Shown here: positions 2,066-35,930 of the stretch, one piece after another | Position numbering within the stretch: position 1 is the first letter of the stretch | Layout: each line of letters opens with the position of its first letter | Source: a virus | Reading direction: 5' to 3' (one strand) | Length of the DNA: 42,522 bases | Virus record (IMG/VR): IMGVR_UViG_3300045284_000301 | Span: 1-42,522 of that record | Made by a program: the position numbers and the translations under genes | Notes under the pieces: generated by a model | Databases searched by the model: none | What the model was told of the DNA's origin: nothing | What the model saw: the letters and a program-made list of their open reading frames with translations, nothing else

Positions 2066-2542
2066 TTAAAGTTTCGTGCCTATACCGAGACCTCGACTGA
2101 CTACTCCGCCAGCCCAAGCAGCGACAAGAGCGCCAGCGATTGTTGCACCAACGGCTGCCTTTGTGTTGTGCTCCGACTTTCCTGTTGGAAGAATGTCTTG
2201 GTACTTCGTTCCCCCATAGAAAGCGATTTTGTCTCGAACCGATGCTTCACCCTTGTTGATTCGATCATTTCTCAACTTTTGTCGAGTTCCACGAATGTTG
2301 GCAGCTTTCTTCAAACTCCCATGCCCTCTGATGAAGTCAAGAGTTGAAACTTGCCACGCCGCACGAGCCTTTTCACCGAGAGTTCCCTTTCCGGAACCAA
2401 CTTTGAGAAGCGTGTTAACTCTTCGTTGTCGTCGAACGCCCCATCGCATTCCCTTCACGCCATGATGCTCGAAGAAGGCATCGATTTCATCGTCAGAAAG
2501 ACCTTGGTGTTCGAGGATCTCGCCGACCTCGTCTACATTCAT
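2066..2542 (-). CDS. Head-region protein with one HHGVKGMRWGVR motif and a membrane segment
   Basis: 158 residues. An acidic helix (DDEIDAFFEHHG) leads into the motif at residues 26-38 (HHGVKGMRWGVRR). A degenerate copy, EILEHQG, lies at 8-14. The middle is very basic, and a glycine/alanine-rich hydrophobic stretch lies near the C-terminus (AVGATIAGALVAAWAGG). The start overlaps the TerL stop by 4 bp. Proteins with this motif recur beside terminase and portal genes of Gram-positive phages, but I know of no proven function. Location suggests a minor virion or capsid-interior protein, and the basic and hydrophobic parts would suit DNA contact or membrane entry. That role is inference. Confidence 0.75.
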   Translation of the reverse strand: MNVDEVGEILEHQGLSDDEIDAFFEHHGVKGMRWGVRRQRRVNTLLKVGSGKGTLGEKARAAWQVSTLDFIRGHGSLKKAANIRGTRQKLRNDRINKGEASVRDKIAFYGGTKYQDILPTGKSEHNTKAAVGATIAGALVAAWAGGVVSRGLGIGTKL

Positions 2543-4272
2543 TCGAAAGCCTCCTTGTTCAGTTTGTAGGCAACGTAAGCGTCCAGCATGGCCGACACGT
2601 TGTCGATCTTTTCTTCCATTCGCTTCTTCATGAGCTTGCGGTTTCCATTGGTGTCCTCCAAAGTCACCGCATTACCCATGGCAAACTGCATGAGATCCTG
2701 ATCGAATATAAGCATCCGTTCTTCGCTCAATTTCTTCAATTCGCCGAGAGGAACCGATTCTGTTCTTGCACCTTGAATCACCTTTTCGATTCCAAACGAA
2801 CCGTTTTCTGCTTCCCATCTACCGACAAACTCTTTTGCATTGTACGGGTCGAATCCGAAACATCGAACGTCATACTCTGTTTGTTGAATGAACGCGTCCA
2901 AGTCGTCGTAGACTTCCATCATGTCCAAAACAGTTCCCTCAAGTACATGAAGACTGTTTTCTTCGATGAATGTGTCGTACTTTGCTCTCGCAGCTCCTGG
3001 AAGTCGCATCAACGTCAACGTCGTGATGTAACTCCTAGTCTTAACACCAAAGGCTCCATTCGAAAGCGGGAAAAGGAACGTAAATGCACAGAAGTCATCT
3101 CCCTGCGACAAGTCTGCTCCAAGTGCGCATGGCATTCCCCAGAATTCTCTGGCTCTATGTGGCAAGGTTTCTTCATAGGTGAAGAAATATGTGAAACCCT
3201 CCATCGGAATACCAAACCTCTTTGCGAGAATGTCGTTTCTTGATGCTGGAGCCTTCTCTGCTCGTTCGACATCCAACTGATAGACCTCGTACGTGACGGT
3301 CTGACCAAGATTTGGATTGGCTTTGATCCATTTGGAGGGATCGTTTACTTCATCGATGCTGTCGAGCTTGTAGTGCCAGATCGAAATATGCGGAGCTTGG
3401 TAATCGCCTCGCAAGATGCTGGCCAGCTCCATCTTGATGGTGTCACCAGCTCCGTTTCGAACTGTACCTTCTGAACTGATTGCCACAATCAACCAGTCAC
3501 TGAGCTTAGACGCTCCTTGCTCAACTGCGCCTACGATGTCTTCACGAATATCACCCGAAAGCCACTCATCAATTGTTGACACTTTAGGTCGTAGACCTTG
3601 AAGCTTGTTGATCGTCATCGGACGAACCTCGAGAAGAGATCCAGTCAGAAAATTCTCAACGCCTTTCTTGGTCGAGCACAGCTTTTGACGGTTGAACCTA
3701 GATCCCGTCGTGTTCTGAAGAGACCCTTCGGTCAAGAACTTGAACAAAGGTCCCCGCGCCCTTGTGATGGCCGTTCTTAGAGGTGACATTACCTCATCGG
3801 CTTGCTTCATCGTGGGTGCAGTCGTCACTTGATGAGTGGTTTCGGTGTTGACGCACATGAAATATGCATGGATACAAGCGGCATACATTGATTTGGCTGC
3901 ACCACGCGCCACGATCAAGTATTGTTTAGTGATTAGCCGCTTCTTTACCACGCGCTTCACGTACGCTTTTTGTTTTGGATCGTAAACACTTCGTTCGATG
4001 AAGTAATACCACCCAAAGATCTGCTCTGCCCACAACTTGAAGGTGTCAAGAAGGTACAGATCTCCTCCGTCTGTCAATGTGAGTTCCCATTCACAGAATT
4101 TGATGAACCCATTGATCGCCTGATCGTCATAGTAGATGTTCGGATTTTCAATTAGAGCATCGATCCGATTCATCTCCAACGAAATCTCTTCGTTTACTGG
4201 AATCTCCCCACGAAGAACGGAATCTCTGAATTCACCGTAATATAGCGGAGTTGCTGTGTTGGACAGAGTCAT
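2539..4272 (-). CDS. terL: Terminase large subunit
   Basis: 577-residue packaging motor and nuclease. Walker A is RGAAKS at residues 123-128. Walker B is STIDEW with Asp235 and Glu236. The RNase H-like nuclease begins near Asp387 (GADLSQGDD), with a second acidic site in CFGFDPYNAKEF. The C-terminus (DNVSAMLDAYVAY) matches the conserved final helix of HK97-type large terminases. Start ATG has GGAGG upstream. The gene lies between two motif-bearing head-region proteins and overlaps the next gene by 4 bp. The family suggests cos packaging, and the HNH nuclease nearby agrees with that. Confidence 0.93.
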   Translation of the reverse strand: MTLSNTATPLYYGEFRDSVLRGEIPVNEEISLEMNRIDALIENPNIYYDDQAINGFIKFCEWELTLTDGGDLYLLDTFKLWAEQIFGWYYFIERSVYDPKQKAYVKRVVKKRLITKQYLIVARGAAKSMYAACIHAYFMCVNTETTHQVTTAPTMKQADEVMSPLRTAITRARGPLFKFLTEGSLQNTTGSRFNRQKLCSTKKGVENFLTGSLLEVRPMTINKLQGLRPKVSTIDEWLSGDIREDIVGAVEQGASKLSDWLIVAISSEGTVRNGAGDTIKMELASILRGDYQAPHISIWHYKLDSIDEVNDPSKWIKANPNLGQTVTYEVYQLDVERAEKAPASRNDILAKRFGIPMEGFTYFFTYEETLPHRAREFWGMPCALGADLSQGDDFCAFTFLFPLSNGAFGVKTRSYITTLTLMRLPGAARAKYDTFIEENSLHVLEGTVLDMMEVYDDLDAFIQQTEYDVRCFGFDPYNAKEFVGRWEAENGSFGIEKVIQGARTESVPLGELKKLSEERMLIFDQDLMQFAMGNAVTLEDTNGNRKLMKKRMEEKIDNVSAMLDAYVAYKLNKEAFE

Positions 4273-4284
4273 TTTGAGCCTCCG

Positions 4285-5157
4285 TTAACTCGCCTGCAAA
4301 AGTCGCTTTCCTTGCTTTATTGCAGCTTGACCGGCTGGACTCTTGACGATGTTGTAAGCCGAAACAGCAATACCAACCGTTGCAAGAACTTCCAAGGCTG
4401 CTTTCTTTCCTTTCTCAACCTTGCTCGGATTTAACCGTTTGAAGTTCTGTTCGAGATTCATTCTCTCGGTTGCGGCCTTGAGTTGTTTGTTCGTCAAAGC
4501 GTGAATCGGCTTACTTCGAGCTTGTGCCGCCTTTCGAGCTTCGGAGGATGATCGAACGCCGCCGCCATCTCGTTTTCTGACACCCCAACGCATTCCCTTC
4601 ACACCGAAATGTTCGATGTATTCGTCGATGTCTTCGACGGAAATGTCGAGATCGTCTTGCCGCATTGTGTCTTCCGGTGGATGGATCTCTGTGACAAACC
4701 CGTTCTCGTCAATACTGACTGGAAAATCAGGAAATCCATCCAGTGCAGATTGAGCAAGTTTCATCTCTGTAGCTCGCATCAACTGTGTGTGACGATCGAA
4801 CTGGTAAATAACAGAACGATTCAACTTTGCGTTGAATGTCTGATTCACCGATGCGTTTGCAAGATGTTGATTGAAGGTCTTTTCAACAATTGTGTCGTAC
4901 ATCTCTCGGAGTTGAGGATCTTTGTTGAGATCCTTTCCTTTGAACATCGGATTGTTGTTGATCTTCTTCATCTCAGGAGCAAACGATTTGGCCGCATCTT
5001 GGAAAATCTGAGTCGCTGCTTCGCCGCTCTTTGCTCCTTTGAGCCATTTGCGATGACTTGTCGAATCTTCTTTCCGAACTCCCCATTTCATTCCTTTGAC
5101 GCCATGATGATCGAGATACTCTTCGATTTCATCCATGGAAATATCGACGTTTGTCAT
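4285..5157 (-). CDS. Head-region protein with two HHGVKGM(K/R)WGVR motifs
   Basis: 290 residues. The motif occurs twice: residues 17-28 (HHGVKGMKWGVR) and 183-194 (HFGVKGMRWGVR). Each copy follows an acidic segment (ISMDEIEEYLD and ISVEDIDEYIE), so the two blocks look like an internal duplication. The C-terminus has a helical basic part and a hydrophobic segment (AALEVLATVGIAVSAYNIV). The gene overlaps the upstream connector by 4 bp and precedes TerL. I do not recognise a MuF fold or an enzyme motif. The site suggests a capsid-associated or minor head protein, but the sequence does not settle its role. Confidence 0.75.
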   Translation of the reverse strand: MTNVDISMDEIEEYLDHHGVKGMKWGVRKEDSTSHRKWLKGAKSGEAATQIFQDAAKSFAPEMKKINNNPMFKGKDLNKDPQLREMYDTIVEKTFNQHLANASVNQTFNAKLNRSVIYQFDRHTQLMRATEMKLAQSALDGFPDFPVSIDENGFVTEIHPPEDTMRQDDLDISVEDIDEYIEHFGVKGMRWGVRKRDGGGVRSSSEARKAAQARSKPIHALTNKQLKAATERMNLEQNFKRLNPSKVEKGKKAALEVLATVGIAVSAYNIVKSPAGQAAIKQGKRLLQAS

Positions 5158-5528
5158 CCATTCACCTCCTGTCTTGGGTCATTCGGGTCGAGATACCACT
5201 CTCTGAAGCAATTGAGTCTCCACTCGTATTCCTTGATCTGGTCTGTCATTGCTCCGATCAGGAACGAAGTCGTCGGTGGATCGAACAGCATCCTCACCTT
5301 GAGGAAGATATACGTCTTGACCAGGTTGAGCTGGTCAACCGGAGCAGGGTAATCTTCCCATACTGTTGATTCATCCTCGATCATGAAGCCCTCCGTCGGG
5401 CCAAGACCTAGTTGCGTGAGAATCGTGAACGCTGCGTTGATGTGTGTAATTATGTCCAAGTCGAAGACCGTGTAGGACTCAGCCACCCCGAGAATTTTCT
5501 TTGTACTTAGCAGAATGCTGTGTTCCAT
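5154..5528 (-). CDS. Head-tail connector protein (gp6-like)
   Basis: 124 residues, helical, with the pattern of gp6-like head completion proteins (ILLSTKKILGVAESYTVFDLDIITHINAAF, then VKTYIFLKVRMLFDPPTTSFL). Such proteins form the ring under the portal and adapt the head to the tail. It sits upstream of TerL, away from the other neck genes at 40.7-41.3 kb, which is not the textbook order. AAAGGA precedes the ATG. The assignment rests on recalled sequence pattern, not on a search. Confidence 0.75.
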   Translation of the reverse strand: MEHSILLSTKKILGVAESYTVFDLDIITHINAAFTILTQLGLGPTEGFMIEDESTVWEDYPAPVDQLNLVKTYIFLKVRMLFDPPTTSFLIGAMTDQIKEYEWRLNCFREWYLDPNDPRQEVNG

Positions 5529-7635: not shown

Positions 7636-10320
7636 CTAAGCTTTGACATTTGTATCAAGAGTTGTCATAGACACACCAAAGTAATCAGCTACTTGCTTCC
7701 TTGTATAGCCAGATGCAAGCATAGCCTTTGCTCTGTTGAGCTTGGATGTACTAAGCTTCTTACTACTGGTGGGTGTAGCCAACTCACGAACACTCTTTGG
7801 ATCTGCGTGTAGAAGGATCTTCTCTAGACGGCTAGGGCTAATAGCACCGGCCTGAATAGCATTCCATTCTTCTTGACTGATCTGGATGCGCTTCTTACTA
7901 GCACCCGTTCTGTTACGAGACTCGGCCAAAGCGATGTTCTTCACCTTCTTCAGTGTTGCTTCATCCATGTTAGGATCAGCATCACGCTTAGCCTTGATCT
8001 GGGTGGACGCAAAGATCTGGGCTTGTCTTTCGAGGGGGGCGTTTCTTTCAGCCACCTTCAATGAATTGGAGAGGGACCTAACTTCTTTGGCATAGGCCTT
8101 TGCAGCATCGGGGTTGTATGAAGACTTTGGTGTTTGCAAAGCCTCTTTCCTAGCCTGGTTTGCTAGATCCTTCAATCGATTCGAATGGTCAGCATAGATG
8201 GCTTCGACTCTGGTACCTGATGAAAGAGTATGGGCATCATCTGTCAGATCCAGTTTCTTAACCTTCTGGGTTACGAGTTTGCCGTTTCTCATTCTACCCG
8301 TATCTACAAACACCCGTTTTCCAGTTGCCGGGTCTATTGGGCCGCCTTCTATTCTACTCCTGGGCTCTCTTTGAGGTATAACTTTCTTTGCGCCAGCTCT
8401 AGAAATTAAAGTAACTGCTCCGATATTTGCGCTTCCTTGATACCTCTTTTTGAGGTTGGAAATTCCGTTGTCAATATATGACTGTTTGTAATTGAGCTTG
8501 TGCTTTTCAGCATCAATAACAACCATCGAATGACGAACGGCAGCGGCAAGATGTTCTGGTGGAGCACCGATAATGGTCATGTCCGTAATGAGATTTGCAA
8601 TCTTTCCCATTTCGGTTTGTGTTTGTATCTTTGACATTGGAACCATTCCTGGATATCCAGCATACGATTCCTTAGGATTGAACTCCTTCAATCCATCCAA
8701 AGATTTTGCTGTTTTGACCCTTCCAGAATCATTCGGAATAACGAGAACATGATCGCCATCGAAGTCCGCTCCAGAAAGCTTTTCAGCAACGCTATGGTGA
8801 ATGCCAATGGCATCAACTGGAGAATTTCCAAGCGATCGCTTTGCCTCACGATTGCTGTTGTCAACAATCAATTCTGGAATTTCAAATGGTCCACTGTGTG
8901 GATGGCGAACAAGGACAACTCGCGTTCCATCTGGATAGTTCGGTGCATATACATGAGTCGGAGGCAAACTGTTTATCGGCAATATGATGCTTGTCGACTG
9001 ACGAGGAAGACTAGCACCTTTCAACTGAACAGCCGCAGAATCAGTAGCACCAGCGAACTTCATCAATAGATCTTTCTTGACTGTTGGATTTGTCAAGGCA
9101 GATATCTCTTTGAAGTTGTTGATTCGCTCCTCATAGGTCATGTCCAATTGCGACTTGATCAGTTGAGGATTCTGCTTTGAAAGCATTTGCGAAGAAAGAG
9201 TATTTGACCATTTCTCCCAATCGCCTTCTTCATTGACAATGTTCATAGCAGATATGCCTGTTTGCTTACCGTTTGCGTCTCGAAGTGGATGCTGACGAAT
9301 GATTGCACCAAACGGATTGATCGAATTTGCCGTATCCTCAGATATGGGCTTCATCGCATCAAGTTTGTTTCCAGTGTCCTTCTTGTTTGTGTTGAACTGC
9401 AAATCAACACCAGGTGGGAGATCATCTTTGTACATGGCCATACCTTTGAGGTAGTGACCTTCTCCAACCTTTACTCGAACCTGAGCATAGTTCTTTCCGC
9501 CAAGAGAAAGATCTTCTACACCAGGACGAATATAAATGACACCATCAGCTGCGGCACCACCTTCTGGTCCATACTTGATGCCAACTCTTTTTGGATCCAC
9601 AGAGACAGGCGGTACGACTTTGAGCATTGACTCGCCACCATCTTCAGAAAATGATCCCACTTGCTGAATTTCATGACGATTCAGAAACACTTCTCTTTGC
9701 GTGGTTCCTGGAGCAGCAAGAACTTTGCCTTTTGTGTTGTGTTCTGTTGTGACTTGAGGAATCGGAACTTCATGAACCACATAACCCTGTTCCTGAAGAA
9801 CTGCAATTCCACCATCAAGACGAGTTCGAGCGATGCCCATTTGATGTTCAACGCCTTTACCAACATCGACGTACTTCTTTTCAGCAACAGCTTCTTTCAA
9901 TGTTCTTGCTGTCGTCTGAATAACGTCTTCTTGGTGCTTTTCTCCATTTGCCAACAAGCCACGAACATATGACTCGTTTCTTCCCAACTGTCTTGCAATT
10001 GCAGAAGTGGAAACTCCCTTTTGCTTCTCTCTCCATGCAAAAGCATAATTGGCCGCAGTGAGCTCAGCTTTTGCGCTTGACATCTTTGCTCGAAGTTGAG
10101 ATGTCGATTTATAGCCAAGTCCTTTTGCAATATCAGGATCGCTGATTCCCTTTTTACGAAGGTTGTTCACGTGATCGTTGAAGTGCATGTTTCGAGGAAG
10201 TTGAAAATCAGGATCGCTCTCTTTGGCTGTTGCAATGTCTTGGCCTGACCCCCAAGGATATCGGCCGCTGTGACGAGGTGTTCCGTAATGAGCCAGATAA
10301 TCTGCTTCTTTGATAATCAT
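7636..10320 (-). CDS. Single-chain multisubunit-type RNA polymerase homologue (YonO-like)
   Basis: 894 residues. The catalytic Mg-binding motif of the beta-prime double-psi barrel is present as GADFDGDH at residues 517-524. It is preceded by PDGTRVVLVRHPHSGPFEIPEL at about 463-483, which matches the NRxPTLH-type approach strand. The beta-like barrel is probably the KGMAMYKDDLPPGVDLQFNTNK region near 292-313. Two helix-turn-helix-like segments lie near 51-80 and 98-125, and one ends the protein (RKQVADYFGVSMTTLD). The N-terminus bears HYGTPRHSGRYPWGSG at 11-26. YonO of phage SPbeta is a proven single-chain polymerase of this class. I infer that this protein transcribes phage genes. It starts at the stop of the nuclease gene and could be virion-packaged. 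Confidence 0.82.
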   Translation of the reverse strand: MIIKEADYLAHYGTPRHSGRYPWGSGQDIATAKESDPDFQLPRNMHFNDHVNNLRKKGISDPDIAKGLGYKSTSQLRAKMSSAKAELTAANYAFAWREKQKGVSTSAIARQLGRNESYVRGLLANGEKHQEDVIQTTARTLKEAVAEKKYVDVGKGVEHQMGIARTRLDGGIAVLQEQGYVVHEVPIPQVTTEHNTKGKVLAAPGTTQREVFLNRHEIQQVGSFSEDGGESMLKVVPPVSVDPKRVGIKYGPEGGAAADGVIYIRPGVEDLSLGGKNYAQVRVKVGEGHYLKGMAMYKDDLPPGVDLQFNTNKKDTGNKLDAMKPISEDTANSINPFGAIIRQHPLRDANGKQTGISAMNIVNEEGDWEKWSNTLSSQMLSKQNPQLIKSQLDMTYEERINNFKEISALTNPTVKKDLLMKFAGATDSAAVQLKGASLPRQSTSIILPINSLPPTHVYAPNYPDGTRVVLVRHPHSGPFEIPELIVDNSNREAKRSLGNSPVDAIGIHHSVAEKLSGADFDGDHVLVIPNDSGRVKTAKSLDGLKEFNPKESYAGYPGMVPMSKIQTQTEMGKIANLITDMTIIGAPPEHLAAAVRHSMVVIDAEKHKLNYKQSYIDNGISNLKKRYQGSANIGAVTLISRAGAKKVIPQREPRSRIEGGPIDPATGKRVFVDTGRMRNGKLVTQKVKKLDLTDDAHTLSSGTRVEAIYADHSNRLKDLANQARKEALQTPKSSYNPDAAKAYAKEVRSLSNSLKVAERNAPLERQAQIFASTQIKAKRDADPNMDEATLKKVKNIALAESRNRTGASKKRIQISQEEWNAIQAGAISPSRLEKILLHADPKSVRELATPTSSKKLSTSKLNRAKAMLASGYTRKQVADYFGVSMTTLDTNVKA

Positions 10321-10874: not shown

Positions 10875-11136
10875 TGAAAACCTGCTCTTCATTCTCAGGA
10901 TATACGAAACTGGCATAAGACAGATCATTGAACTTGTCAATGAAATATCCCTGATTCGGTCGCTCTGGTGCATCGATGGACGCTTTCACTTCCAACATGG
11001 CCCAAGCTCTTCCGTTTAGAATAAAGAGATCAGGAATTCCTTGCATGTAGTCTGGATCTTGTTTGATTACCAGACAACCAGGAAATTCCTCCTTCAATCT
11101 TCGGATGATTCGTGTTTGGTAGACGCTTTCTCTCAT
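10840..11136 (-). CDS. VRR-NUC domain nuclease
   Basis: 98 residues, the usual size of stand-alone phage VRR-NUC proteins. Catalytic positions are Asp36 (QGIPDLFIL) and Glu49-Val-Lys51 (AMLEVKAS), with Gln/Asp contacts in IKQDPDYMQG. The family belongs to the PD-(D/E)XK nucleases and acts on branched DNA or flaps. It is encoded between the NUMOD4 gene and a Cas4-like nuclease, beside the SF2 helicase, so a recombination or replication role is likely. Confidence 0.88.
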   Translation of the reverse strand: MRESVYQTRIIRRLKEEFPGCLVIKQDPDYMQGIPDLFILNGRAWAMLEVKASIDAPERPNQGYFIDKFNDLSYASFVYPENEEQVFNELQLALSNRR

Positions 11137-11193
11137 GCAGCCCCCAAAAAATAGAAGATGATCTTCTCTCCGTTACACTACCGGTTTTTTTCG

Positions 11194-11218
11194 CTATGTA
11201 GTACGGTTTCATACATAG
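11194..11218 (-). repeat. Hairpin at the end of the NUMOD4 gene
   Basis: CTATGTA pairs with TACATAG around an 11-base loop. The 15 bases at 11196-11210 reappear in opposite orientation at 11830-11844 (GAAACCGTACTACAT), so the NUMOD4 gene is flanked by short inverted copies. On the minus strand a run of seven A follows, not T, so it is not a classical terminator. Confidence 0.6.
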
Positions 11219-11700
11219 TAGAAATATAGTGTGGTTGGAAAGACGATTAGATCGCGGTTCAAATTATCAAGAACGTCTCTCATGAGAACTCCATGAATCA
11301 TGGCAACATCTCGAACAGTGTCGTATCTTATCCGATTGTCATCAATGATTGGACCAACTTCTTGCTTTTCTTTTGACACAACATCGAATTGACGAGCATA
11401 CTCATTCGCAAACCACCTAGGACGCCAAGCCAAGTTGTCAACTCTGAAGTTCTTCTGATCGCCATCTTTTGAGATAACGGTGTCAAATATCTCTGTTTCG
11501 CCTTCAACGAACTCTTTAGCTACCAAAGATCGCACAGATCTGGTGTATTGACCATCATCTCGAGTGAGATCAACCATGACGACTCCATGACCATTCTCAC
11601 GGAATTTCATCACCTTTCCAGTCCAGGTATTGCAGATCTCTCCGAGGTTCGAAATCTCGTATCTCGGGAACTCTTGAATGGGTCTCCATTGCTCTTTCAT
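11209..11700 (-). CDS. NUMOD4-containing protein
   Basis: 163 residues from the ATG at 11698-11700 (AAAGGACCTC upstream). The N-terminus EQWRPIQEFPRYEISNLGEI is a clear NUMOD4 motif, the DNA-binding module found in HNH homing enzymes. No HNH catalytic core follows: I see only FRVDNLAWRPRWFANEYARQFD and a helix-turn-helix-like end (YDTVRDVAMIHGVLMRDVLDNL). It may be a DNA-binding relic of a homing endonuclease or a regulator. It is flanked by inverted repeats, which adds to the impression of a former mobile unit. Confidence 0.8.
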   Translation of the reverse strand: MKEQWRPIQEFPRYEISNLGEICNTWTGKVMKFRENGHGVVMVDLTRDDGQYTRSVRSLVAKEFVEGETEIFDTVISKDGDQKNFRVDNLAWRPRWFANEYARQFDVVSKEKQEVGPIIDDNRIRYDTVRDVAMIHGVLMRDVLDNLNRDLIVFPTTLYFYYV

Positions 11701-11714
11701 GAGGTCCTTTCTTG

Positions 11715-11894
11715 CCTTGTGATTTTTGCCCAATAACAGGGTCCAAGAAGTTCTGTAGAAGGGTATGTTGTACGGTTTTATCTTTATCTCAAAACCATCT
11801 TGGGGATAGAAAGGGGGTAGAAATCACAAGAAACCGTACTACATGTGCCTCTACAGAACTTCTTGGACCCTGTTTATGCCCAAAAATCACAAGG
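11715..11894. repeat. 45-bp inverted repeat filling the 11.7-11.9 kb intergenic region
   Basis: Arms 11715-11759 and 11850-11894 are reverse complements at 41 of 45 positions. The differences all lie in a 6-bp block. The inner 25 bp next to the loop and the outer 14 bp are perfect. The 90-bp spacer holds a further pair, GTACGGTTT (about 11770) and AAACCGTAC (about 11831). The element occupies nearly all of the space between the SF2 helicase stop and the NUMOD4 ribosome site. It could form a very long RNA stem, a cruciform, or a MITE-like unit. I see no clear target-site duplication. Confidence 0.85.
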
Positions 11895-11901
11895 GTACTT
11901 T

Positions 11902-13071
11902 TTAGAGGTTTTTACGTGCCCAATCCCTCTCGTTAAACATCTCTTTGCGGCTCAGAGAGTTCCAAACTGCCAGGTCAGGCACACTTTTTGATCTCAACAC
12001 GTAGTAATACAGATCGGTGAACGGCGTGTCCAATCTGTCGATTCTACCGTGTGCTTGCATGTGATTTTTGTAAGAATACGTCAAAGAGTAGAAAATCATG
12101 GTGTCTGTGACGGTACAATTCCATGCTTCGGCCCCAGCGACGTACTGAACCAGATATACCCAACTTTCAGTGGTCGGAATTGGCGTTTTTCGGTGTCCAT
12201 TTAGTTCTCCCACAAAAATCACGTGAGATTTCACGTATTCCAGACCCCTCAAGATGGCCAATTCGTAGTCAAAATTGTAAAAGATTACGACTCTGGGATG
12301 GGTCTCCATGATCTCCAAAATGGCCTCAAATCGGCTCCGATCGCTGTTTACGATCCTCCGCATGACCCTGAACAATTCCGCCACATCTTTGATGGGTTCG
12401 TTGGAATATGGGTTCCATCTCTTCACCAGAGCCGTTTTCAATAGCTCAGTGTCGTAATCAACCCACACAGTCTCTTCAATCCGCCTCGTATGACGAATAT
12501 AAGGCATCTCCACCAAAAGCATGTTGCGGTACTTCTCGAGTGTCTGCTCCCCATTGAACCGCACAATCTTCGGGAATTTAGAGAACGGCGCATACACCAC
12601 ATGTTCTCGGACGAACTGCGTCCTGTTCCTGTACAAGTTGTTCGCAATGAACACAGGCACGTAGTCCATCCAAGAATCGCCAGGCGTAGCAGTGAGCATC
12701 ACCCAGTTGTTGTTCTTGGCGATCTTGAGAAATGACTTGACCCATACACCGCTTCCTACGAGTCGTTGTTCATCGAATATGAAGAAGGCGTCCTCGACTT
12801 CGATGTACTTACCAATGTTGTTCCAGGAATCAACAACAAGCAGTCCTTCAAGCGTGACTTCAGTTCCGATGCCATACGCAACTGCTTCTTTTTCCCACTC
12901 AAGACTATCACGCTTCTTGGCTGTTGTGATGACATAAATGTCCTTTGGCCTTTCTCGTTTCATGTAATATGCCATGACGGTGGCAGACTTCCCAGCACCA
13001 ACGCCTCCATAGAGGATCTTGCCATTGCTGAGGTTCTCTACCGCTTCGAGTTGGTGTTCCATTAACTGCAT
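11902..13071 (-). CDS. SF2 helicase (DEAD/SNF2-like)
   Basis: 389 residues from the ATG at 13069-13071, chosen over an upstream ATG because GGAGG lies 6 bp before it. Motifs: Walker A YGGVGAGKSA at 21-30, Walker B IFDEQR at 98-103 (DEQR in place of DEAD/H), motif III TATP at 127-130, and motif VI HMQAHGRIDR near the C-terminus. This is an ATP-driven DNA helicase or translocase. Phage versions are paired with VRR-NUC and help initiate replication or recombination. Both the VRR-NUC and a Cas4-like nuclease are encoded just downstream. Confidence 0.9.
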   Translation of the reverse strand: MQLMEHQLEAVENLSNGKILYGGVGAGKSATVMAYYMKRERPKDIYVITTAKKRDSLEWEKEAVAYGIGTEVTLEGLLVVDSWNNIGKYIEVEDAFFIFDEQRLVGSGVWVKSFLKIAKNNNWVMLTATPGDSWMDYVPVFIANNLYRNRTQFVREHVVYAPFSKFPKIVRFNGEQTLEKYRNMLLVEMPYIRHTRRIEETVWVDYDTELLKTALVKRWNPYSNEPIKDVAELFRVMRRIVNSDRSRFEAILEIMETHPRVVIFYNFDYELAILRGLEYVKSHVIFVGELNGHRKTPIPTTESWVYLVQYVAGAEAWNCTVTDTMIFYSLTYSYKNHMQAHGRIDRLDTPFTDLYYYVLRSKSVPDLAVWNSLSRKEMFNERDWARKNL

Positions 13072-13086
13072 TAAGCCCTCCAAAGG

Positions 13087-13114
13087 CAAAAAAGACAATC
13101 CATGTAGGACTGTC
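13087..13114 (-). terminator. Intrinsic terminator before the SF2 helicase
   Basis: On the minus strand GGACTGTC's partner strands (13094-13101 and 13107-13114) form an 8-bp stem with one G-U pair and a 5-base loop, followed by TTTTTT. It would end the transcript of the small membrane protein gene upstream. Confidence 0.7.
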
Positions 13115-13125
13115 CTTTTAGTAGA

Positions 13126-13311
13126 TTATTCACTGCACGTGGCATTGATGAATCCGGTCTTCTTGTAGAATCGACGATCTTTCCAGTTCCGAACTGCGGC
13201 TGTTGCTGCTGTGATTGTCACTGAGAGTGCTAGTCCAATGACGACCACCGCACCAGCATGAGCAGCTGTGAACTCAGATCCATCGTCAAACGTCTTGATT
13301 GTGGGGTTCAT
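13126..13311 (-). CDS. Small single-pass membrane protein, 61 aa
   Basis: Start ATG at 13309-13311 with AAGGAGAAAG upstream. One membrane span (AGAVVVIGLALSVTITAATAAV), then a basic cytoplasmic-type end (RNWKDRRFYKK). It is directly preceded by a copy of the repeated TTCGCA-N14-TGTAAT element and followed by a terminator, so it looks like a self-contained transcription unit. I do not recognise the family. Confidence 0.7.
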   Translation of the reverse strand: MNPTIKTFDDGSEFTAAHAGAVVVIGLALSVTITAATAAVRNWKDRRFYKKTGFINATCSE

Positions 13312-13335
13312 TTCTTTCTCCTTGTAGTGGGTTTC

Positions 13336-13365
13336 TTCCATTACAATGCGTGTAAGAAATGCGAA
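13336..13365 (-). promoter_or_regulatory. Repeated TTCGCA-N14-TGTAATGGAA element, copy A
   Basis: On the minus strand: TTCGCA, 14 bases, TGTAATGGAA, then AAGGAG and the ATG of the 61-residue membrane protein. The plus strand shows the dyad TTACA-ATGCG-TGTAA. It is one of seven copies with identical spacing and is read as a promoter with a possible operator. Confidence 0.7.
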
Positions 13366-13394
13366 AAGGATGGGCCCTGTAGGGCTTCTCCTTT
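13364..13394 (-). terminator. Terminator hairpin upstream of element copy A
   Basis: AAAGGA...TCCTTT with an inner GCCCT/AGGGC stem. On the minus strand it ends in TTTT, which runs straight into the TTCGCA box. It follows the 78-residue protein gene. Confidence 0.65.
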
Positions 13395-13406
13395 CGGTTT
13401 CGACTT

Positions 13407-13643
13407 TCAGTGTTTCTCGTTCAACTGCATGACGCGGCGATCGATCCGAACCTGGATACCGTTCTCGATGTGGTCGTGCTCATCCTGCAAACGCTGCATC
13501 AAGTCATTGTAGATCGCGCTGCCTGCTCCGTAGAGTTTGGCATACGCTTTCTCGGTCCTGATGAAGTTGTCCTTAAGACGATCACGGCTCGTAATCAGAG
13601 CGGTGTAGATTGGGTCGGTCATGATGTACATGATGTTGTCCAT
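13407..13643 (-). CDS. Hypothetical soluble protein, 78 aa
   Basis: Start ATG at 13641-13643, with AAGGAGTAAAC upstream and element copy B before that. The longer upstream frame would run through the element and a hairpin, so it is rejected. The product is helical and charged (TDPIYTALITSRDRLKDNFIRTEKAYAKLYG, then a coiled-coil-like DLMQRLQDEHDHIENG). It is the one clearly soluble product among the genes preceded by the repeated element. Function unknown. Confidence 0.7.
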   Translation of the reverse strand: MDNIMYIMTDPIYTALITSRDRLKDNFIRTEKAYAKLYGAGSAIYNDLMQRLQDEHDHIENGIQVRIDRRVMQLNEKH

Positions 13644-13663
13644 GTTTACTCCTTGTAGTGGGT

Positions 13664-13693
13664 TTCCATTACAGTGGGTGTAAATTATGCGAA
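13664..13693 (-). promoter_or_regulatory. Repeated TTCGCA-N14-TGTAATGGAA element, copy B
   Basis: Same layout as copy A, with the perfect dyad TTACA-GTGGG-TGTAA. It is placed 20 bp before the start of the 78-residue gene, with AAGGAG between. Confidence 0.7.
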
Positions 13694-13695
13694 GT

Positions 13696-13729
13696 GTAGG
13701 GGTAGAGCCGGCGGAGACCCTACCCCTAC
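13696..13729 (-). terminator. Strong hairpin upstream of element copy B
   Basis: GTAGGGGTAG (13696-13705) and CTACCCCTAC (13720-13729) form a perfect 10-bp stem around a 14-base loop, directly before element B on the minus strand. No long T run follows. It may act as a terminator or as an mRNA end-stabilising stem for the lysis genes. Confidence 0.65.
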
Positions 13730-13797
13730 GATCAACATGTCTGTTTGTGTGAAGTTTCGGATGAGCCACACCGGGCTTCACGTTAGGGCATTGCGCA

Positions 13798-13917
13798 TCA
13801 CCTCCTTTTCGGTTTACGATGTAACTCGTCTTTGCGGGTGTAGATGACCACGAGGATCAACACAACCACAAGAACGAAGATCATCCCTTTGAGCCAAAGC
13901 CAGAAGTAATTCATCAT
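13798..13917 (-). CDS. Candidate holin, 39 aa single-pass membrane protein
   Basis: Starts at ATG 13915-13917, overlapping the lysozyme stop by 4 bp (ATGA). The product is MMNYFWLWLKG followed by a strong membrane span (MIFVLVVVLILVVIY) and a basic tail (TRKDELHRKPKRR). Position right after a secreted lysozyme, tiny size, one span and a charged C-terminus are what is expected of a small holin or pinholin-type protein. No homology is claimed. It could be just another of the phage's many small membrane proteins. Confidence 0.65.
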   Translation of the reverse strand: MMNYFWLWLKGMIFVLVVVLILVVIYTRKDELHRKPKRR

Positions 13918-15257: not shown

Positions 15258-15460
15258 ATACAGGTAGCTACTCCTGCATAAGTGCTGTGTGTCCTTCACA
15301 GATCATGATGGGCAATGAAATATCAACTCCGCACCGGGTAGGAAGAGATTGGCAGTTGAGTCTCCATTGATTACTTCGAATAAACGCTAGGTCTGGCCGT
15401 CCCCTGACTTCGCTACTATTCGACCCATCCGCTCTGAGCCTAAGACCTGTTTAACGTCGC
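15258..15460. other. Noncoding stretch, no gene seen
   Basis: No frame with a ribosome site on either strand. It contains a near-palindrome CAGGTAGCTACTCCTG (about 15261-15277) and an unstructured middle. I looked for a tRNA in both orientations and found no clover-leaf. It may hold a promoter or a small RNA. Confidence 0.4.
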
Positions 15461-15718
15461 TCAGACGACGGTGTTTGGAATGGCAGTAACATTCAAGCCA
15501 CTCGTTGCCTCTTCGATTGGTCCTGCAAAAGTTGTCAAAAGTCCGCCAAACCACTCTGGAAGATGCACTTCTATAACGGAAGTGAGCTCGAATTTTTCGT
15601 CGCCAAGGACAAAAGTCATGGTGGCAGTCCCATCTTGATTGTCGATGAGATGCACTTCTCGAAGAGATTCGGCGATCAATCGTGCCATTTCTTCTGGTGT
15701 TTCTGGCATGTTTTCCAT
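15461..15718 (-). CDS. Hypothetical protein, 85 aa
   Basis: ATG with AAAGGAGAATCACC upstream. The N-terminus is helical (PEEMARLIAESLREVHLIDNQDG), followed by a beta-rich part (TATMTFVLGDEKFELTSVIEVHLPEWFGGLLT). No membrane span or enzyme motif. It follows the 114-residue gene by 18 bp and lies at the end of the replication operon. Not recognised. Confidence 0.65.
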   Translation of the reverse strand: MENMPETPEEMARLIAESLREVHLIDNQDGTATMTFVLGDEKFELTSVIEVHLPEWFGGLLTTFAGPIEEATSGLNVTAIPNTVV

Positions 15719-21000: not shown

Positions 21001-21540
21001 TCAGATATGGTGATCGACTAGATACTCACTGAACTGGTACCAGATTTCCACCTTTCTCTGATCGTTTCGACTTATGTTGTTCAATGGGAACATTCCACCT
21101 TCGCCGGTTCCACCAGAATATGTACGCCATAGAAACTGATCCAAGACGTCTGTAGCAAACTCTGCAATATCCTCTTCGGCATCATTGCAGCCTTCGAGGT
21201 GTAGGTTTGTTAGAAATATCCAGAACCAGTCTCGCACTGGCATGTCCGTCTGCCACTCAGCACGTCTGGCAAAGGCTATGAACATCTCCAGAACAGAACA
21301 CGGCAAAGCCATCATCACAGGATCTCGCTCGATCCCAATCTGATCGAAAAACTCTTTGCGTAGTTCTATTCCATCCGCAGCCCTGTTGTCATCTCCAACC
21401 ACAAGCCACACGAATTCTGTATGATGCAAAACTGAAAGCAGCGTCCAGTATGTGTTGCTCGGGCAAGGATTGTCTTCGGCGGCCACTTTAGCGTAAAGCC
21501 ACCTGAAATATACCTCTTCGAGCGGCTCATCCACTTCCAT
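21001..21540 (-). CDS. Conserved phage protein, 179 aa
   Basis: Starts at ATG with GGGAG upstream, 2 bp after the preceding stop. Tryptophan-rich and acidic: EEVYFRWLYAKV near the start, ALPCSVLEMFIAFARRAEW and VRDWFWIFLTNLHLEGCND in the middle. I recall relatives in many phages of Gram-positive bacteria, next to the same group of genes found here (21.5-24.2 kb). No membrane span and no enzyme motif. It lies just before the replication fusion gene. Confidence 0.75.
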   Translation of the reverse strand: MEVDEPLEEVYFRWLYAKVAAEDNPCPSNTYWTLLSVLHHTEFVWLVVGDDNRAADGIELRKEFFDQIGIERDPVMMALPCSVLEMFIAFARRAEWQTDMPVRDWFWIFLTNLHLEGCNDAEEDIAEFATDVLDQFLWRTYSGGTGEGGMFPLNNISRNDQRKVEIWYQFSEYLVDHHI

Positions 21541-22195: not shown

Positions 22196-23050
22196 CTAGA
22201 TCAAGTCGTAGACTTGGCCATCGACATTGAAGTCGAGAATGATGCTGACTTCGTAACCGTTGACAAAATTGGCGTTGCCGGCTTCGTAGATACCGAAATC
22301 GACGAAGTTGTCACCGTTGTCACGAACCCAACCGACAATCTGACCTTGCGGCGTTCTCGGAATATCGAGGAGATCGTACGCCTCATTCAAGAAGACGTGA
22401 CCTCTCGAGTGAAGAAGATGGTTGCAGTAGTTCTGCTGAGCCTGGATGAACAGACGGTTCGCTTCGCCAGTCTTCTTCCAGTTGACATTCGACTCATCGA
22501 ACATCTTGGCGTACGGAGACCATCTGTTTGGATCTGCTCGCTTGAATTTCTCGAGCTTCCCACCTCTGCCGATCTGTTCAACCTCGATCGCATGGTAGAA
22601 CTCGAGTTCCTTCTCTTCTCCGAGCTCGTTTCGAACACGCTCACGATACGCGTCGTAGCTGGCCTGCAAAGCAGAATATCCAGCACTCAAGGCCGCATAG
22701 CGATTGTTCTGAATTCCACGAGATTTTGTGAGGCATCCGATTGATGCAACGCCGATGATCATTGCCGGCGCATACAACTTGACGATCTTGTAGGTCCCGT
22801 GAATATAGACCCTCATCATGGCCTTGTCGTGATCGAACTCGTGAGCATTTTCTTTGTGTTCGACTTGATCAACGTCCTTTTGAATTTCGTCAAGCGTCTT
22901 CTCGAGCTTCAATGTTGCACGACACGCCAACACTGTTGACGCAATCGATCCAACGATTCCGGCGACCATCAAAATGCCTGGCGCATTCTTTTGGACAACC
23001 AGCGTTTTCCTTCCGGCAAACCGGGTCACTCCTGCTGGAATGAATTTCAT
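22196..23050 (-). CDS. Membrane protein, DUF6353-like, 284 aa
   Basis: AAGGAG precedes the ATG. Two or three membrane segments (APGILMVAGIVGSIASTVLACRA and VKLYAPAMIIGVASIGCLT), then a helical region (ALSAGYSALQASYDAYRERVRNELGEEKELEFYHAIE) and a C-terminal soluble domain. It shares this plan with the 243-residue protein at 24.7-25.5 kb, including the AYxxYRxxVxxELGExKE stretch, so the two look paralogous. I recall the family as DUF6353 (from memory). It probably sits in the host membrane during infection. Confidence 0.75.
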   Translation of the reverse strand: MKFIPAGVTRFAGRKTLVVQKNAPGILMVAGIVGSIASTVLACRATLKLEKTLDEIQKDVDQVEHKENAHEFDHDKAMMRVYIHGTYKIVKLYAPAMIIGVASIGCLTKSRGIQNNRYAALSAGYSALQASYDAYRERVRNELGEEKELEFYHAIEVEQIGRGGKLEKFKRADPNRWSPYAKMFDESNVNWKKTGEANRLFIQAQQNYCNHLLHSRGHVFLNEAYDLLDIPRTPQGQIVGWVRDNGDNFVDFGIYEAGNANFVNGYEVSIILDFNVDGQVYDLI

Positions 23051-23059
23051 GACTTCTCC

Positions 23060-23689
23060 TTAATTAATTGGTTCTACTGGTGGGAGGTCGAGCAAATATC
23101 CTTCACGGATTTGCCGAACGTTTGCGTAGCTGAGATTTTCCCAGCCCCATTTGTTGTCCACATAGGTGCTCGGCAGTCCAACCAGATCGTGGAGATCTGC
23201 AACCGAAGCAACCTTGTAGACGTCGATGATGTCGGTCATTCGTTCGATGACCAGATCAGCTTCATCTCTGGAATGAAGAATGATCTCACCAACATCTTGT
23301 CTCCTTCTGGATACTCCTCCGATCGGAGGCTGATCAGGAAGAGTTCCCCTTGAGGTACGTGTGTATCGGTCAATGGGCGTAGAATATTGCACCCTGGGCC
23401 GACCTGGTTCGTACCTCTTTCTTGGCGAATCCCCATAGAAGATCCTTTCCACGCCTTTGGAAGTTGAATCAACGATTAGATTCTTGAGTGCGGGCACAAT
23501 GACCTCACCCAAGATATAGCTTCCAACATTCTTCATGTGTCCTCGTACGAATGTGTTCTTGAACTTTCGTCCAATTGATGTGGGACGATGTGTTGCATCA
23601 ACCGACACGACCTTCTCCACGACTTTGTCGGCTCTCTTCGATTTGTTGTCGCCGACTGGATTTTGTTGATTACCTGGAAACTGGTCCAT
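23060..23689 (-). CDS. Conserved phage protein, 209 aa
   Basis: AAAGGACACC precedes the ATG. A basic Asn/Gln-rich start, then ISxGRKFKNTFV-type segment SIGRKFKNTFVRGHMKNVGS, then YILGEVIVPALKNLIVDSTSKGVERIFYGD, a widespread phage signature, an Arg/Pro-rich middle, and a C-terminal block (VIERMTDIIDVYKVASVADLHDLVGLPSTYVDNKWGW). I have seen the same order of motifs in unrelated phages beside DUF6353-like membrane proteins. No function is known to me. Soluble or peripheral. Confidence 0.75.
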   Translation of the reverse strand: MDQFPGNQQNPVGDNKSKRADKVVEKVVSVDATHRPTSIGRKFKNTFVRGHMKNVGSYILGEVIVPALKNLIVDSTSKGVERIFYGDSPRKRYEPGRPRVQYSTPIDRYTRTSRGTLPDQPPIGGVSRRRQDVGEIILHSRDEADLVIERMTDIIDVYKVASVADLHDLVGLPSTYVDNKWGWENLSYANVRQIREGYLLDLPPVEPIN

Positions 23690-24537: not shown

Positions 24538-24742
24538 TTGTTTTCTCCTTATGAGGTGGGCTTCCATTACAGTCCTTGTTTTTTCTGCGAACCACAGGTT
24601 CTCTGCGACCTGGAAATACGCCGCAATGATCTGGATTCAACAAAAGGAAGTTATTCGCCCGTTCGAGGATCAAGAATAGAGTCATCACCTCCCTCTCGTA
24701 CTCTTGATCCCCGGGGCCAGATCTCCATTGTGACACGCTCAT
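24515..24742 (-). CDS. Probable small protein, 75 aa, coupled to the membrane protein upstream
   Basis: Its ATG (24740-24742) overlaps the stop of the 243-residue membrane protein as ATGA. Residues 12-42 (DQEYEREVMTLFLILERANNFLLLNPDHCG) look like a genuine helical segment. An internal ATG has a strong GGGAGGTG before it. The 3' half runs through element copy C and looks less protein-like, so the real coding part may be short. Moderate support. Confidence 0.45.
   Translation of the reverse strand: MSVSQWRSGPGDQEYEREVMTLFLILERANNFLLLNPDHCGVFPGRREPVVRRKNKDCNGSPPHKEKTNGSHRRY
24562..24591 (-). promoter_or_regulatory. Repeated TTCGCA-N14-TGTAATGGAA element, copy C
   Basis: TTCGCA, 14 bases ending in AAGGAC, TGTAATGGAA. 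Located 25 bp before the ATG of the 67-residue membrane protein, with a ribosome site between. Confidence 0.7.
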
Positions 24743-25473
24743 CAGAATGGTCTGACATAGTTGTAGTCAAACACCAAACACGGCCTCCCATCCTCCGTGA
24801 TCGATGTCGAGAACTGTAGGTACATCATCTTGTCACAGTCCCAACCGGTTCTGGACGAATATGACGTAGTCGGAAGTCCAACCATGTAGTAGAAGTCGCT
24901 TAAGGTTGCTTCCACCTCTCGAATGAGCTTGGAGTTGATCCTGTTCTCGGCTCGACGGAGAGTTTCCATGTCGCAGTTGAAATATCGACCCGTGTGCATC
25001 TCTTGGCAGAGCACACTTCCTGCACCAACCACAATAGCCCCTGGCTGATTCTCATTAACGTGGTCTTGTGCGATTTCATCGCGGATTGCCTTCTCCTTCT
25101 TTTCTCCGAGTTCCTCAACCACCTTCGTCTTGTATTCATCAAAGGCACGTTCGGTAACGGCGAGGACAGAATATGCCGCAGCAGTCTTCTTCATGCCGAT
25201 CCTTGCGCCAGTGATGATTGAGCCAATCGTGAGAGTGGCCGAGATCGCTGTTGGAATATAGTGCTTCCAAACGAGCTTAACCTTCTCCTTCTTGGTCAAC
25301 GGATTGTCAGCAACAAGGTTCTCAAGGCGAATATGCTCACCTGCCTTGAATGATGCCTTGGCTGAGAAGTATGTCGTGGCCAACACACCACTCACACCGA
25401 TTGATGTGAATATGGCTGGCGAGTTTGCTCGAACGGTCTTCTCGAGCGTATGTGTGAGCTGTTGCAGCTTCAT
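24742..25473 (-). CDS. Membrane protein, DUF6353-like paralogue, 243 aa
   Basis: Starts at ATG 25471-25473, overlapping the stop of the 38-residue gene. Membrane segments near residues 18-38 (SPAIFTSIGVSGVLATTYFSA) and 72-92 (YIPTAISATLTIGSIITGARI), then EYKTKVVEELGEKKEKAIRDEIAQD and a C-terminal domain with GSVLCQEMHTGRYFNCDMETLRRAENRIN and DFYYMVGLPTTSYSSRTGWDCD. The plan repeats that of the 284-residue protein at 22.2 kb. An upstream start is rejected because it lies inside the overlapping small gene. Function unknown. Confidence 0.75.
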   Translation of the reverse strand: MKLQQLTHTLEKTVRANSPAIFTSIGVSGVLATTYFSAKASFKAGEHIRLENLVADNPLTKKEKVKLVWKHYIPTAISATLTIGSIITGARIGMKKTAAAYSVLAVTERAFDEYKTKVVEELGEKKEKAIRDEIAQDHVNENQPGAIVVGAGSVLCQEMHTGRYFNCDMETLRRAENRINSKLIREVEATLSDFYYMVGLPTTSYSSRTGWDCDKMMYLQFSTSITEDGRPCLVFDYNYVRPF

Positions 25474-25586
25474 CGGCGACGCATCTCTCGAACGAATATC
25501 CAGATGAGCCAGAACCCACACGTGATCAGGGTCATGAAGACGTCGAAGATGAACCGAATTGGTCCATACCTTCTACGAATAGACAT
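25470..25586 (-). CDS. Small membrane protein, 38 aa
   Basis: ATG 25584-25586 with AAAAGGAGAC upstream. MSIRRRYGPIRFIFDVF, then a hydrophobic span (MTLITCGFWLIWIFV) and REMRRR at the end. Basic ends around a Trp/Phe-rich span. The RRRYGPIR start is one I recall in other phages of Actinobacteria. The stop overlaps the next start. Confidence 0.75.
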   Translation of the reverse strand: MSIRRRYGPIRFIFDVFMTLITCGFWLIWIFVREMRRR

Positions 25587-25687
25587 AATGTCTCCTTTTG
25601 GTTGAGTGAAAAATGAAAAAGGAAGTTCCTGCAATTCGACGTATCCGTCCGGGTACAGGTTTCAAGCGGCTCTCCAAATCCGCTTCC
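25587..25687 (-). promoter_or_regulatory. Structured leader between element D and the 38-aa gene
   Basis: About 100 bases. It holds a hairpin AAGCGG/CCGCTT (about 25662-25683) and, nearer the gene, the palindrome AGGAACTTCCT followed on the minus strand by TTTTT (about 25615-25630), which looks like an early terminator or attenuator. No ORF. Other element copies lie within 40 bp of their genes, so this longer leader stands out. Confidence 0.5.
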
Positions 25688-25717
25688 TTCCATTAGAATC
25701 CCTGTTTTTTCTGCGAA
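25688..25717 (-). promoter_or_regulatory. Repeated TTCGCA-N14-TGTAATGGAA element, copy D
   Basis: TTCGCA, 14 bases ending in ACAGGGAT, then TCTAATGGAA (one change, C for G). It precedes the leader and operon of the 38-residue and 243-residue membrane proteins. Confidence 0.65.
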
Positions 25718-25942: not shown

Positions 25943-25963
25943 TACTTCCTCCTGTTAGTGGGC

Positions 25964-25993
25964 TTCCATTACAGTCCCTGAAAATCATGCGAA
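25964..25993 (-). promoter_or_regulatory. Repeated TTCGCA-N14-TGTAATGGAA element, copy E
   Basis: TTCGCA, 14 bases ending in CAGGGAC, TGTAATGGAA, then GCCCAC and AGGAGG before the 61-residue gene. Confidence 0.7.
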
Positions 25994-26242: not shown

Positions 26243-26260
26243 GATTTCCTTTCGGGTTGA

Positions 26261-26290
26261 TTCCATTACAATCCCTGTAATTTTTGCGCC
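26261..26290 (-). promoter_or_regulatory. Repeated element, copy F (GGCGCA variant)
   Basis: GGCGCA instead of TTCGCA, 14 bases ending in ACAGGGAT, TGTAATGGAA. The plus strand gives the perfect dyad TTACA-ATCCC-TGTAA. Directly upstream of the 69-residue gene. Confidence 0.65.
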
Positions 26291-26716: not shown

Positions 26717-26735
26717 CGAGTATCCTTTCTGTAGG

Positions 26736-26765
26736 TTCCATTACAATCCCTGTATTACTTGCGAA
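26736..26765 (-). promoter_or_regulatory. Repeated TTCGCA-N14-TGTAATGGAA element, copy G
   Basis: TTCGCA, 14 bases ending in ACAGGGAT, TGTAATGGAA, 20 bp before the 95-residue gene. The copy overlaps the last codons of the upstream gene, with a small AACCT/AGGTT hairpin beside it. Confidence 0.7.
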
Positions 26766-34686: not shown

Positions 34687-35930
34687 GAAGCCTCCAGTTC
34701 TGTGATTCGGTATTGCAGGGTTTCGACATGACGAGTCAGTCGTTGGACGTGATCGAGCATTGCAACGATGATTGGAACATAGTTGATTCCAGCTGGATTG
34801 CCGGTATTACAATCGAACTGAACAGCAGTTGGCAACACCATTGCAACTTCTTCTGCAATGAGACCAAGTTGTTCTCGTTTGTAATCAACTTGCATGACTG
34901 GATTTGTGCTTTCGATGATTTCCCATGAATCATCATCTTCTGCTGCAACTCGATCATACCCAGAACGAGGGACAACAATTTGTGGAAGATCATTTCGACG
35001 ATACACGGCCGGACGCAAAGCCATGATGTTCGCTTGATCAATGACGTCTTGATTCCAAGGAACATACGCTGGTCTCGGTTCCATGTCTGGCGACAATGAA
35101 CGAATGTCATGTTTCATCGTCATTGTGGATTGTACGACAAATGCATACGCTTTCGCATTTGACCAACCACTCTGATCGGAGTTCATAAAACCAATCGCAT
35201 AACCATCGGACGAATGATTACGAAGCTGTGGCGCTGCACCTCCAGTTGCTTGATAGAAAGCAATGTCTGCGTAGTCGGTTGTGGCATAGGCCAGAAGGTG
35301 CGCAGCACTCCAGTTTGGGTTGCCGGCCTTAACTGACTGAATCAATGCATTACTTTGAACCATTCCTCGCAAGTATGACTGTCCACCGTTGTCGATGGCA
35401 TAGCCACTTGTAAGAGCACCACCGAGACCAACACTCAACTGAGCACATCCCATCAACGTAGAGACATAAACGTTCTTGCTGTTGTATGAACGAATCCATG
35501 TAGAATCGGTCATCTGCCAACCGCCGCCATACGTTGAAAAGTACAGAACATTGGAACCCGTTATGTTCAACGTACTGTTAACCGTAAATTGAGCGACAAC
35601 AGTTGCAACAGTAGGCGTAAAAGACGCCACATCGGTATTATTCACACGTAAAGAAACTCCGCCAGAAGCGCAGTTCAACAACAATGCTGATGGTGTTGCC
35701 ATTACTGTGTATTGGCCCAAACCTGCTTGGTCAGCTCGATAAATCGAAGCATAACCAGACCCGTATTGAGGATGACCGCCAGAAATAACAAATCCGGTAC
35801 CAGCTCCATTAACAGTCAAGGAACCAGTCATCACGTCGCCAGTTTTTAGGACAAACTGTCCAGAATCGAAGGGCTGGTAATATCCAATCGGAGACCATGC
35901 TCCACCGACTTTTACTTTTAGCACACCCAT
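34683..35930 (-). CDS. Tail fibre with S74 self-cleaving chaperone
   Basis: 415 residues. The beta-rich body (residues 20-260) ends in an intramolecular chaperone of the peptidase S74 family: STMTMKHDIRSLSP with catalytic Ser268 and Lys273 at the usual five-residue spacing, then EQLGLIAEEVAMVLPTAVQF and VPIIVAMLDHVQRLTRHVETLQYRITELE, the C-terminal coiled coil. This domain folds the trimer and then cuts itself off. The protein is a likely receptor-binding fibre. It follows the collagen-like fibre with overlapping start. Confidence 0.9.
   Translation of the reverse strand: MGVLKVKVGGAWSPIGYYQPFDSGQFVLKTGDVMTGSLTVNGAGTGFVISGGHPQYGSGYASIYRADQAGLGQYTVMATPSALLLNCASGGVSLRVNNTDVASFTPTVATVVAQFTVNSTLNITGSNVLYFSTYGGGWQMTDSTWIRSYNSKNVYVSTLMGCAQLSVGLGGALTSGYAIDNGGQSYLRGMVQSNALIQSVKAGNPNWSAAHLLAYATTDYADIAFYQATGGAAPQLRNHSSDGYAIGFMNSDQSGWSNAKAYAFVVQSTMTMKHDIRSLSPDMEPRPAYVPWNQDVIDQANIMALRPAVYRRNDLPQIVVPRSGYDRVAAEDDDSWEIIESTNPVMQVDYKREQLGLIAEEVAMVLPTAVQFDCNTGNPAGINYVPIIVAMLDHVQRLTRHVETLQYRITELEAS

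Follow-up and report, generated by a model that had tools for sequence, protein, structure and literature searches.

A predicted single-chain RNA polymerase and a candidate sigma-free 34-nt promoter in phages of Actinobacteria and Firmicutes

QDE-1 and RDR2 are cellular polymerases of RNA silencing. YonO of the Bacillus prophage SPbeta, a phage-encoded single chain of 839 aa with the motif DNDGD, is by experiment a DNA-dependent RNA polymerase that transcribes late genes, and its promoter sequence was left open in that work (PMC5467207). Thermus phage P23-45 encodes a virion enzyme, gp96, and a non-virion one, gp64, both of two-barrel fold (8f72, 8f5m); according to PMC10770324, these enzymes have DNA motifs of their own that co-occur with them. 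In Gordonia phages of cluster DJ, the genome notes of Vardy and of Conley describe a 43–50-bp repeated motif that is intergenic, contains TATAAT and lies at mid-genome; they read it as a sigma-70 promoter and tie it neither to a polymerase nor to phages of other hosts. Single-chain two-barrel phage RNA polymerases and the DJ motif are therefore known, each separately from the other.

The window analyzed here is the whole of a virus record of 42,522 nt (IMGVR_UViG_3300045284_000301) that ends in 127-nt direct terminal repeats and carries its main annotated genes on the minus strand. Positions 7636–10320 form a single 894-codon ORF, also on the minus strand, while the plus strand of this interval is stop-rich; an earlier sequence-only reading of the window had recognized the frame and missed its strand. 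The product matched the profile of phrog_4291, labeled “RNA-dependent RNA polymerase” in the database, over residues 3–892 of 894 and far above chance (E = 0, 1160 bits). By tblastn, 250 of the 50,697 phage records searched contained a match, 249 of which covered at least 80% of the query, and the full-length matches among those listed were 36–53% identical. IMG/VR supplied 553 relatives, of which 80 were retained and aligned with the window polymerase (81 sequences). The Pfam RdRP model PF05183 scored below its cut-off (13.2 against 23.8 bits, E 0.036), as did the one NCBIfam domain match; searches of PDB sequences with the protein and its profile matched no RNA polymerase, and PADLOC left the protein unmatched.

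The metal-binding motif DFDGD lies at residues 519–523 (8752–8766, minus strand), where it had been pointed out before, and is identical in all 81 aligned sequences. An AlphaFold2 model built from 61 sequences was of moderate confidence (pLDDT 75.5, pTM 0.58), with residues 1–45 poorly modeled. Its core best matched QDE-1 (Z 13.3, 369 residues), at an identity of only 12–15% in the QDE-1 rows, and also matched the phage polymerases 8f72 (Z 12.0) and 8f5m (Z 11.6). These two-barrel matches, QDE-1 and RDR2 included, extend over approximately residues 237–731, with 356–376 residues aligned for QDE-1 and the phage polymerases, and the double-psi barrels were judged from the overall fold match rather than by strand-by-strand tracing; Foldseek alone gave a weaker result (TM 0.33, E 1.5e-8). 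The start of the core, residues 237–330 (9331–9612, minus strand), is proposed to be a beta-like barrel with the invariant K292 and K324, an assignment based on the fold match beginning at residues 237–239 and on invariance. K292, K313 and K324 are invariant among the 61 sequences as alignment positions, and are candidates for the catalytic lysines of such a barrel. Within a moderate-confidence model, the predicted core thus supports the proposal of a single-chain polymerase with two double-psi barrels.

Helix-turn-helix (HTH) segments were found at both ends of the chain, as previously suggested. The second segment (residues 96–122; 9955–10035, minus strand) and the C-terminal one (residues 854–888; 7657–7761, minus strand) exceeded the Pfam cut-offs of HTH_23 and HTH_7, respectively, and the first (residues 47–67; 10120–10182, minus strand) is a weaker prediction from model helices 47–56 and 61–67 and weak PHROG matches (phrog_769 over residues 43–74, E 0.011). 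In the homologues from phages 1706 and FP_oengus, Pfam models of sigma-70 region 4 exceeded their cut-offs on the terminal HTHs, and the generic HTH_23 outscored them there. The terminal HTHs may contribute to promoter recognition. The likeness to YonO drawn in the sequence-only reading holds for the mode of action, and no homology was detected: the polymerase profile matched the single YonO sequence with 8% probability over 19 columns, and YonO, unlike the window polymerase, had no Pfam HTH match at E ≤ 1. Unlike gp96 and gp64, the window polymerase has HTHs at its termini and, as a separate feature, an N-terminal tag; in P23-45, gp96 and the tape measure form one fusion protein, and two motifs are present, one AT-rich and one GC-rich.

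The hexamer TTCGCA, reported earlier as a repeat, occurs 23 times in the window, and because these matches are largely scattered it was rejected as the repeat unit in favor of a 34-nt element of which it forms the left end. A repeat does exist, and the earlier reading had missed both its full length and its presence in other phages. Seven copies lie on the minus strand in the orientation of the genes, at 26731–26764, 26256–26289 (beginning GCGCA), 25959–25992, 25683–25716, 24557–24590, 13659–13692 and 13331–13364, the last preceding the helicase/exonuclease/polymerase end of the genome. Six of them open with TTCGCA and one with GGCGCA. The window consensus is TCGCA-N5-WACA-N5-TGTAATGGAA and that of the relatives TCGCA-N5-WACA-N5-TATAATGAGACCCC, so that the element is composed of the blocks TCGCA, WACA, a -10-like block and GAGACCCC. 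The -10-like block reads TGTAAT in six window copies and TCTAAT in the copy at 25683–25716.

Across 29 genomes with the polymerase, a fixed regular expression for the element gave 127 matches on the coding strand and none antisense, against 0.1 expected from Markov shuffles; all 20 of the contigs that had been picked by polymerase similarity alone carried at least two. Phages P078 and FP_oengus had no match and 1706 and RosaAsantewaa one each, and each of the four has a diverged repeat of its own. Accordingly, the strict expression TACA-N7-WAATGR found nothing in FP_oengus, and a further one found nothing in FP_oengus, 1706 or P078, all carriers of diverged forms. Conservation begins at TCGCA and fades after approximately 34 nt, with nothing conserved upstream and no conserved block at -35 distance among 193 sites. 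A Shine–Dalgarno sequence and start codon follow within 90 nt at 160 of the 193 sites as compared to 397 of 1470 random positions, and the median distance from the end of TATAATGA to the start codon is 23 nt.

A blind blastn search with a 43-nt consensus recovered the element in 233 of the 50,697 phage records, and its distribution was compared with that of the polymerase as genus tallies (element/polymerase). These were equal for Arthrobacter (95/95), Gordonia (55/55), Streptomyces (54/54), Siphovirus (12/12), Rhodococcus (4/4) and Microbacterium (4/4); the element was less frequent in Lactococcus (4/13), Curtobacterium (4/7) and Caudovirus (1/2), and two Faecalibacterium records with the polymerase were absent from the element tally. 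The element is thereby confined to this phage lineage. In the reverse direction, 37 of 49 IMG/VR contigs from an element scan had a polymerase match at E ≤ 0.001 (a marginal one in G016), and the polymerase is encoded in 24 of the 25 element-chosen contigs of at least 40 kb. Thirteen element contigs had no clear polymerase, and six of these carry the DNA polymerase of the lineage. One 46-kb contig (G024, contig of L134) has a single element together with the lineage DNA polymerase; the RNA polymerase was looked for there and not detected.

The DNA polymerase is inherited along with the RNA polymerase and has the same genus tallies. Co-occurrence therefore does not point to the RNA polymerase in particular, and we compared distances. 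The comparison with the DNA polymerase covered 26 of the 29 genomes: G067 and G068 had fewer than three sites, and the fetched part of G056 lies outside the DNA polymerase gene. A leave-one-genome-out profile found one site each in P078 and FP_oengus, and for covariation and variant counts the sites of these two phages were taken by phage-specific patterns, which gave 7 of the 14 repeat copies listed for FP_oengus. Over 34 element positions, element distance correlated with RNA polymerase distance at r 0.885. Given the DNA polymerase, the RNA polymerase retained a partial r of 0.59 (p 0.0002), as opposed to 0.21 (p 0.08) for the DNA polymerase given the RNA polymerase. Given each of ten control proteins, the partial r of the polymerase was 0.54–0.83 (p 0.0005, partial Mantel, 34 positions), and two of the controls (21001–21540 and 23060–23689) kept a small signal given the polymerase (p 0.01–0.03). 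On the 18 most conserved positions, with DNA polymerase and GC controlled, the partial r was 0.46 (p 0.003), falling to 0.31 (p 0.045) when three Firmicute phages were removed and to 0.14 (p 0.22) on the further removal of three variant genomes. Seven regions of the polymerase correlated with the element at r 0.50–0.68, and no region stood out. Because it is weak on conserved positions, the covariation supports cognate recognition and does not prove it. The earlier proposal that the polymerase reads the element thus finds good support in co-occurrence, orientation and covariation, all of them sequence comparisons, and we consider it probable that a DNA-dependent polymerase uses the 34-nt element as its cognate promoter.

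Along the coding strand the tag protein comes first, then terminase, portal, capsid, tape measure and tail; the element cluster follows, and after it DNA polymerase, helicase, often a further element, exonuclease and RNA polymerase. Between terminase and tape measure no element was found among the genomes listed. An element lies within approximately 0.5 kb upstream of the exonuclease gene in 13 of the 28 genomes in which that gene was located, which suggests that the operon is transcribed by the polymerase that it encodes. We propose that a DNA-dependent, single-chain, two-barrel RNA polymerase would initiate without a sigma factor at the 34-nt promoter, copies of which would lie approximately 23 nt 5′ of start codons, grouped ahead of the early genes and in many cases also upstream of the operon of the polymerase itself. 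The transcript of this operon could continue into the late genes once the genome ends join. The polymerase itself may ride in the virion by means of its N-terminal tag, be injected with the DNA and start early transcription.

Several other features of the window were recorded. The gene for the single-strand annealing protein is followed downstream by a Pistol ribozyme (15398–15470, minus strand; 41.1 bits against the Rfam gathering threshold of 34.5). A long inverted repeat at 11715–11894, in the gap on the downstream side of the helicase gene, has 64-nt arms that are 86% complementary and a 52-nt loop; in the eight relatives checked, the matching gap has shorter inverted repeats or none. Collagen-like 9-nt/27-nt repeats occur at 36645–36928 inside a 413-aa ORF (35930–37171) that probably encodes a tail-tip or fiber protein, and two proteins of the functionally unassigned family phrog_2152 are encoded at 22196–23050 and 24742–25521.

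The tag, which the sequence-only reading had overlooked, occupies residues 8–27 (10240–10299, minus strand): the first residues of the polymerase, YLAHYGTPRHSGRYPWGSG, are highly conserved in the 81-sequence alignment, and this region is proposed as a virion-loading signal. Tags of the form LxHxGVKGMKWGV (Pfam DUF7211, function unknown) occur on short proteins flanking the terminase, upstream of it or between terminase and portal among the genomes listed. In the window, one such protein with two HHGVKGMKWGV-type tags lies directly upstream of the terminase gene (4285–5157, minus strand), and another with a single tag lies between the terminase and portal genes (2066–2542, minus strand); the DUF7211 profile matched these neighbors, with spans of 4288–5178 and 2069–2671 in that search. 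Compared as profiles, the polymerase tags and the DUF7211 tags matched with 95% probability over 13 columns, and PF23847 (DUF7211) gave no match at E ≤ 1 to the polymerase's own tag. In MT835616 (L084), the terminase-flanking proteins at 1284–1895 and 3657–4211 carry the polymerase-type tag, and both match the N-terminus of the polymerase family.

Database records bear on the same point. The polymerase of Lactococcus phage 1706 (orf75) and its orf7, which has two DUF7211 tags and immediately precedes the terminase gene, were both deposited as “structural protein”, and the notes in the ReqiPoco6 and ReqiPepy6 records repeat this for orf75. As the remaining 1706 genes take their names from homology (“putative portal protein”) or are called “unknown”, the label probably reflects virion proteomics. 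Phage 1706 is reportedly the subject of a paper by Garneau and colleagues from 2008. Searches of the open-licence literature found no virion proteomics for such phages and, with the tag strings, nothing on phages. The resemblance of the tag to DUF7211 and the labels in 1706 suggest that the polymerase may be packaged and injected, and we regard the chances of packaging as roughly even. More tentatively, and with somewhat less confidence, this large lineage of Actinobacteria and Firmicutes phages may as a whole pack a single-chain, multisubunit-type, HTH-bearing polymerase into the capsid through a short N-terminal tag shared with the DUF7211 proteins next to the terminase. The injected enzyme and not that of the host would then start early transcription from the 34-nt promoter without a sigma factor, and the tag would be a general cargo-loading signal.

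A polymerase that reads the elements could also be made in the cell, after the host enzyme has started its operon, and never be packaged. YonO offers a precedent, as a DNA-dependent polymerase of late SPbeta genes (PMC5467207), and elements ahead of the exonuclease–polymerase operon in 13 of 28 genomes would fit auto-amplification after a small start. This account must contend, however, with the “structural protein” label of 1706 orf75 and with a polymerase tag resembling those of the terminase-flanking proteins; in addition, a sigma-70 scan of 10900–13800 found no site on the coding strand and one on the opposite strand, a lower count than shuffled sequences gave. We regard it as possible and rather doubtful.

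An unlikely reading is that the elements serve as ordinary sigma-70 promoters of the host, with TATAAT as the -10, and that the polymerase is otherwise occupied or reads other sites. TATAAT is the most frequent -10-like form in many genomes, and the DJ motif, which is very probably the 34-nt element (for Vardy we compared the published description), was given this reading in the genome notes. Host sigma-70 needs an adenine at position 2 of the -10, but this adenine is lost in all seven window copies, TGTAAT or TCTAAT, and in the relative G065, where four of five copies read AGTAAT. The block is TATAGT in 11 of 12 copies of 1706 and CTTTAT or TTTTAT in all seven copies used from FP_oengus. Nor is any block conserved at the distance of a sigma-70 -35 (16–18 nt), and the genus tallies of the element track the polymerase across Actinobacteria and Firmicutes. 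That another phage protein binds the repeats, as operators or as sites of replication, appears quite improbable: repeated, oriented intergenic sites serve as operators (stoperators) in other phages, and the relatives have small HTH genes, but the elements keep a fixed position ahead of ribosome-binding sites, are clustered upstream of the early genes, are missing between the terminase and tape-measure genes and covary with the polymerase. An RNA-dependent RNA polymerase, the name that phrog_4291 and RefSeq carry and that the best fold match, QDE-1, might recommend, is barely credible in a DNA phage with no RNA stage, the more so as QDE-1 itself has been solved on DNA templates, judging by structure titles, and the label may stem from the weak PF05183 similarity.

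In the open-licence papers searched, the link between element and polymerase, its reach across hosts and the polymerase tag were not found, and the element motif appeared in the DJ notes only. Linking the element to the polymerase gives a motif published as a sigma-70 promoter a different reading, and would do the same for the annotations “RNA-dependent RNA polymerase” and “helix-turn-helix DNA binding protein” in approximately 250 records. It also gives the single-chain two-barrel family a clear promoter candidate in phages of Gordonia, Streptomyces, Arthrobacter, Rhodococcus and Lactococcus that have been isolated and can be cultured, which opens to direct testing how an enzyme of this kind finds its promoter without sigma. 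Packaging, if true, would also assign a possible function to the DUF7211 tag. Overall, these results suggest that hundreds of sequenced phages may run early transcription with an enzyme of their own.
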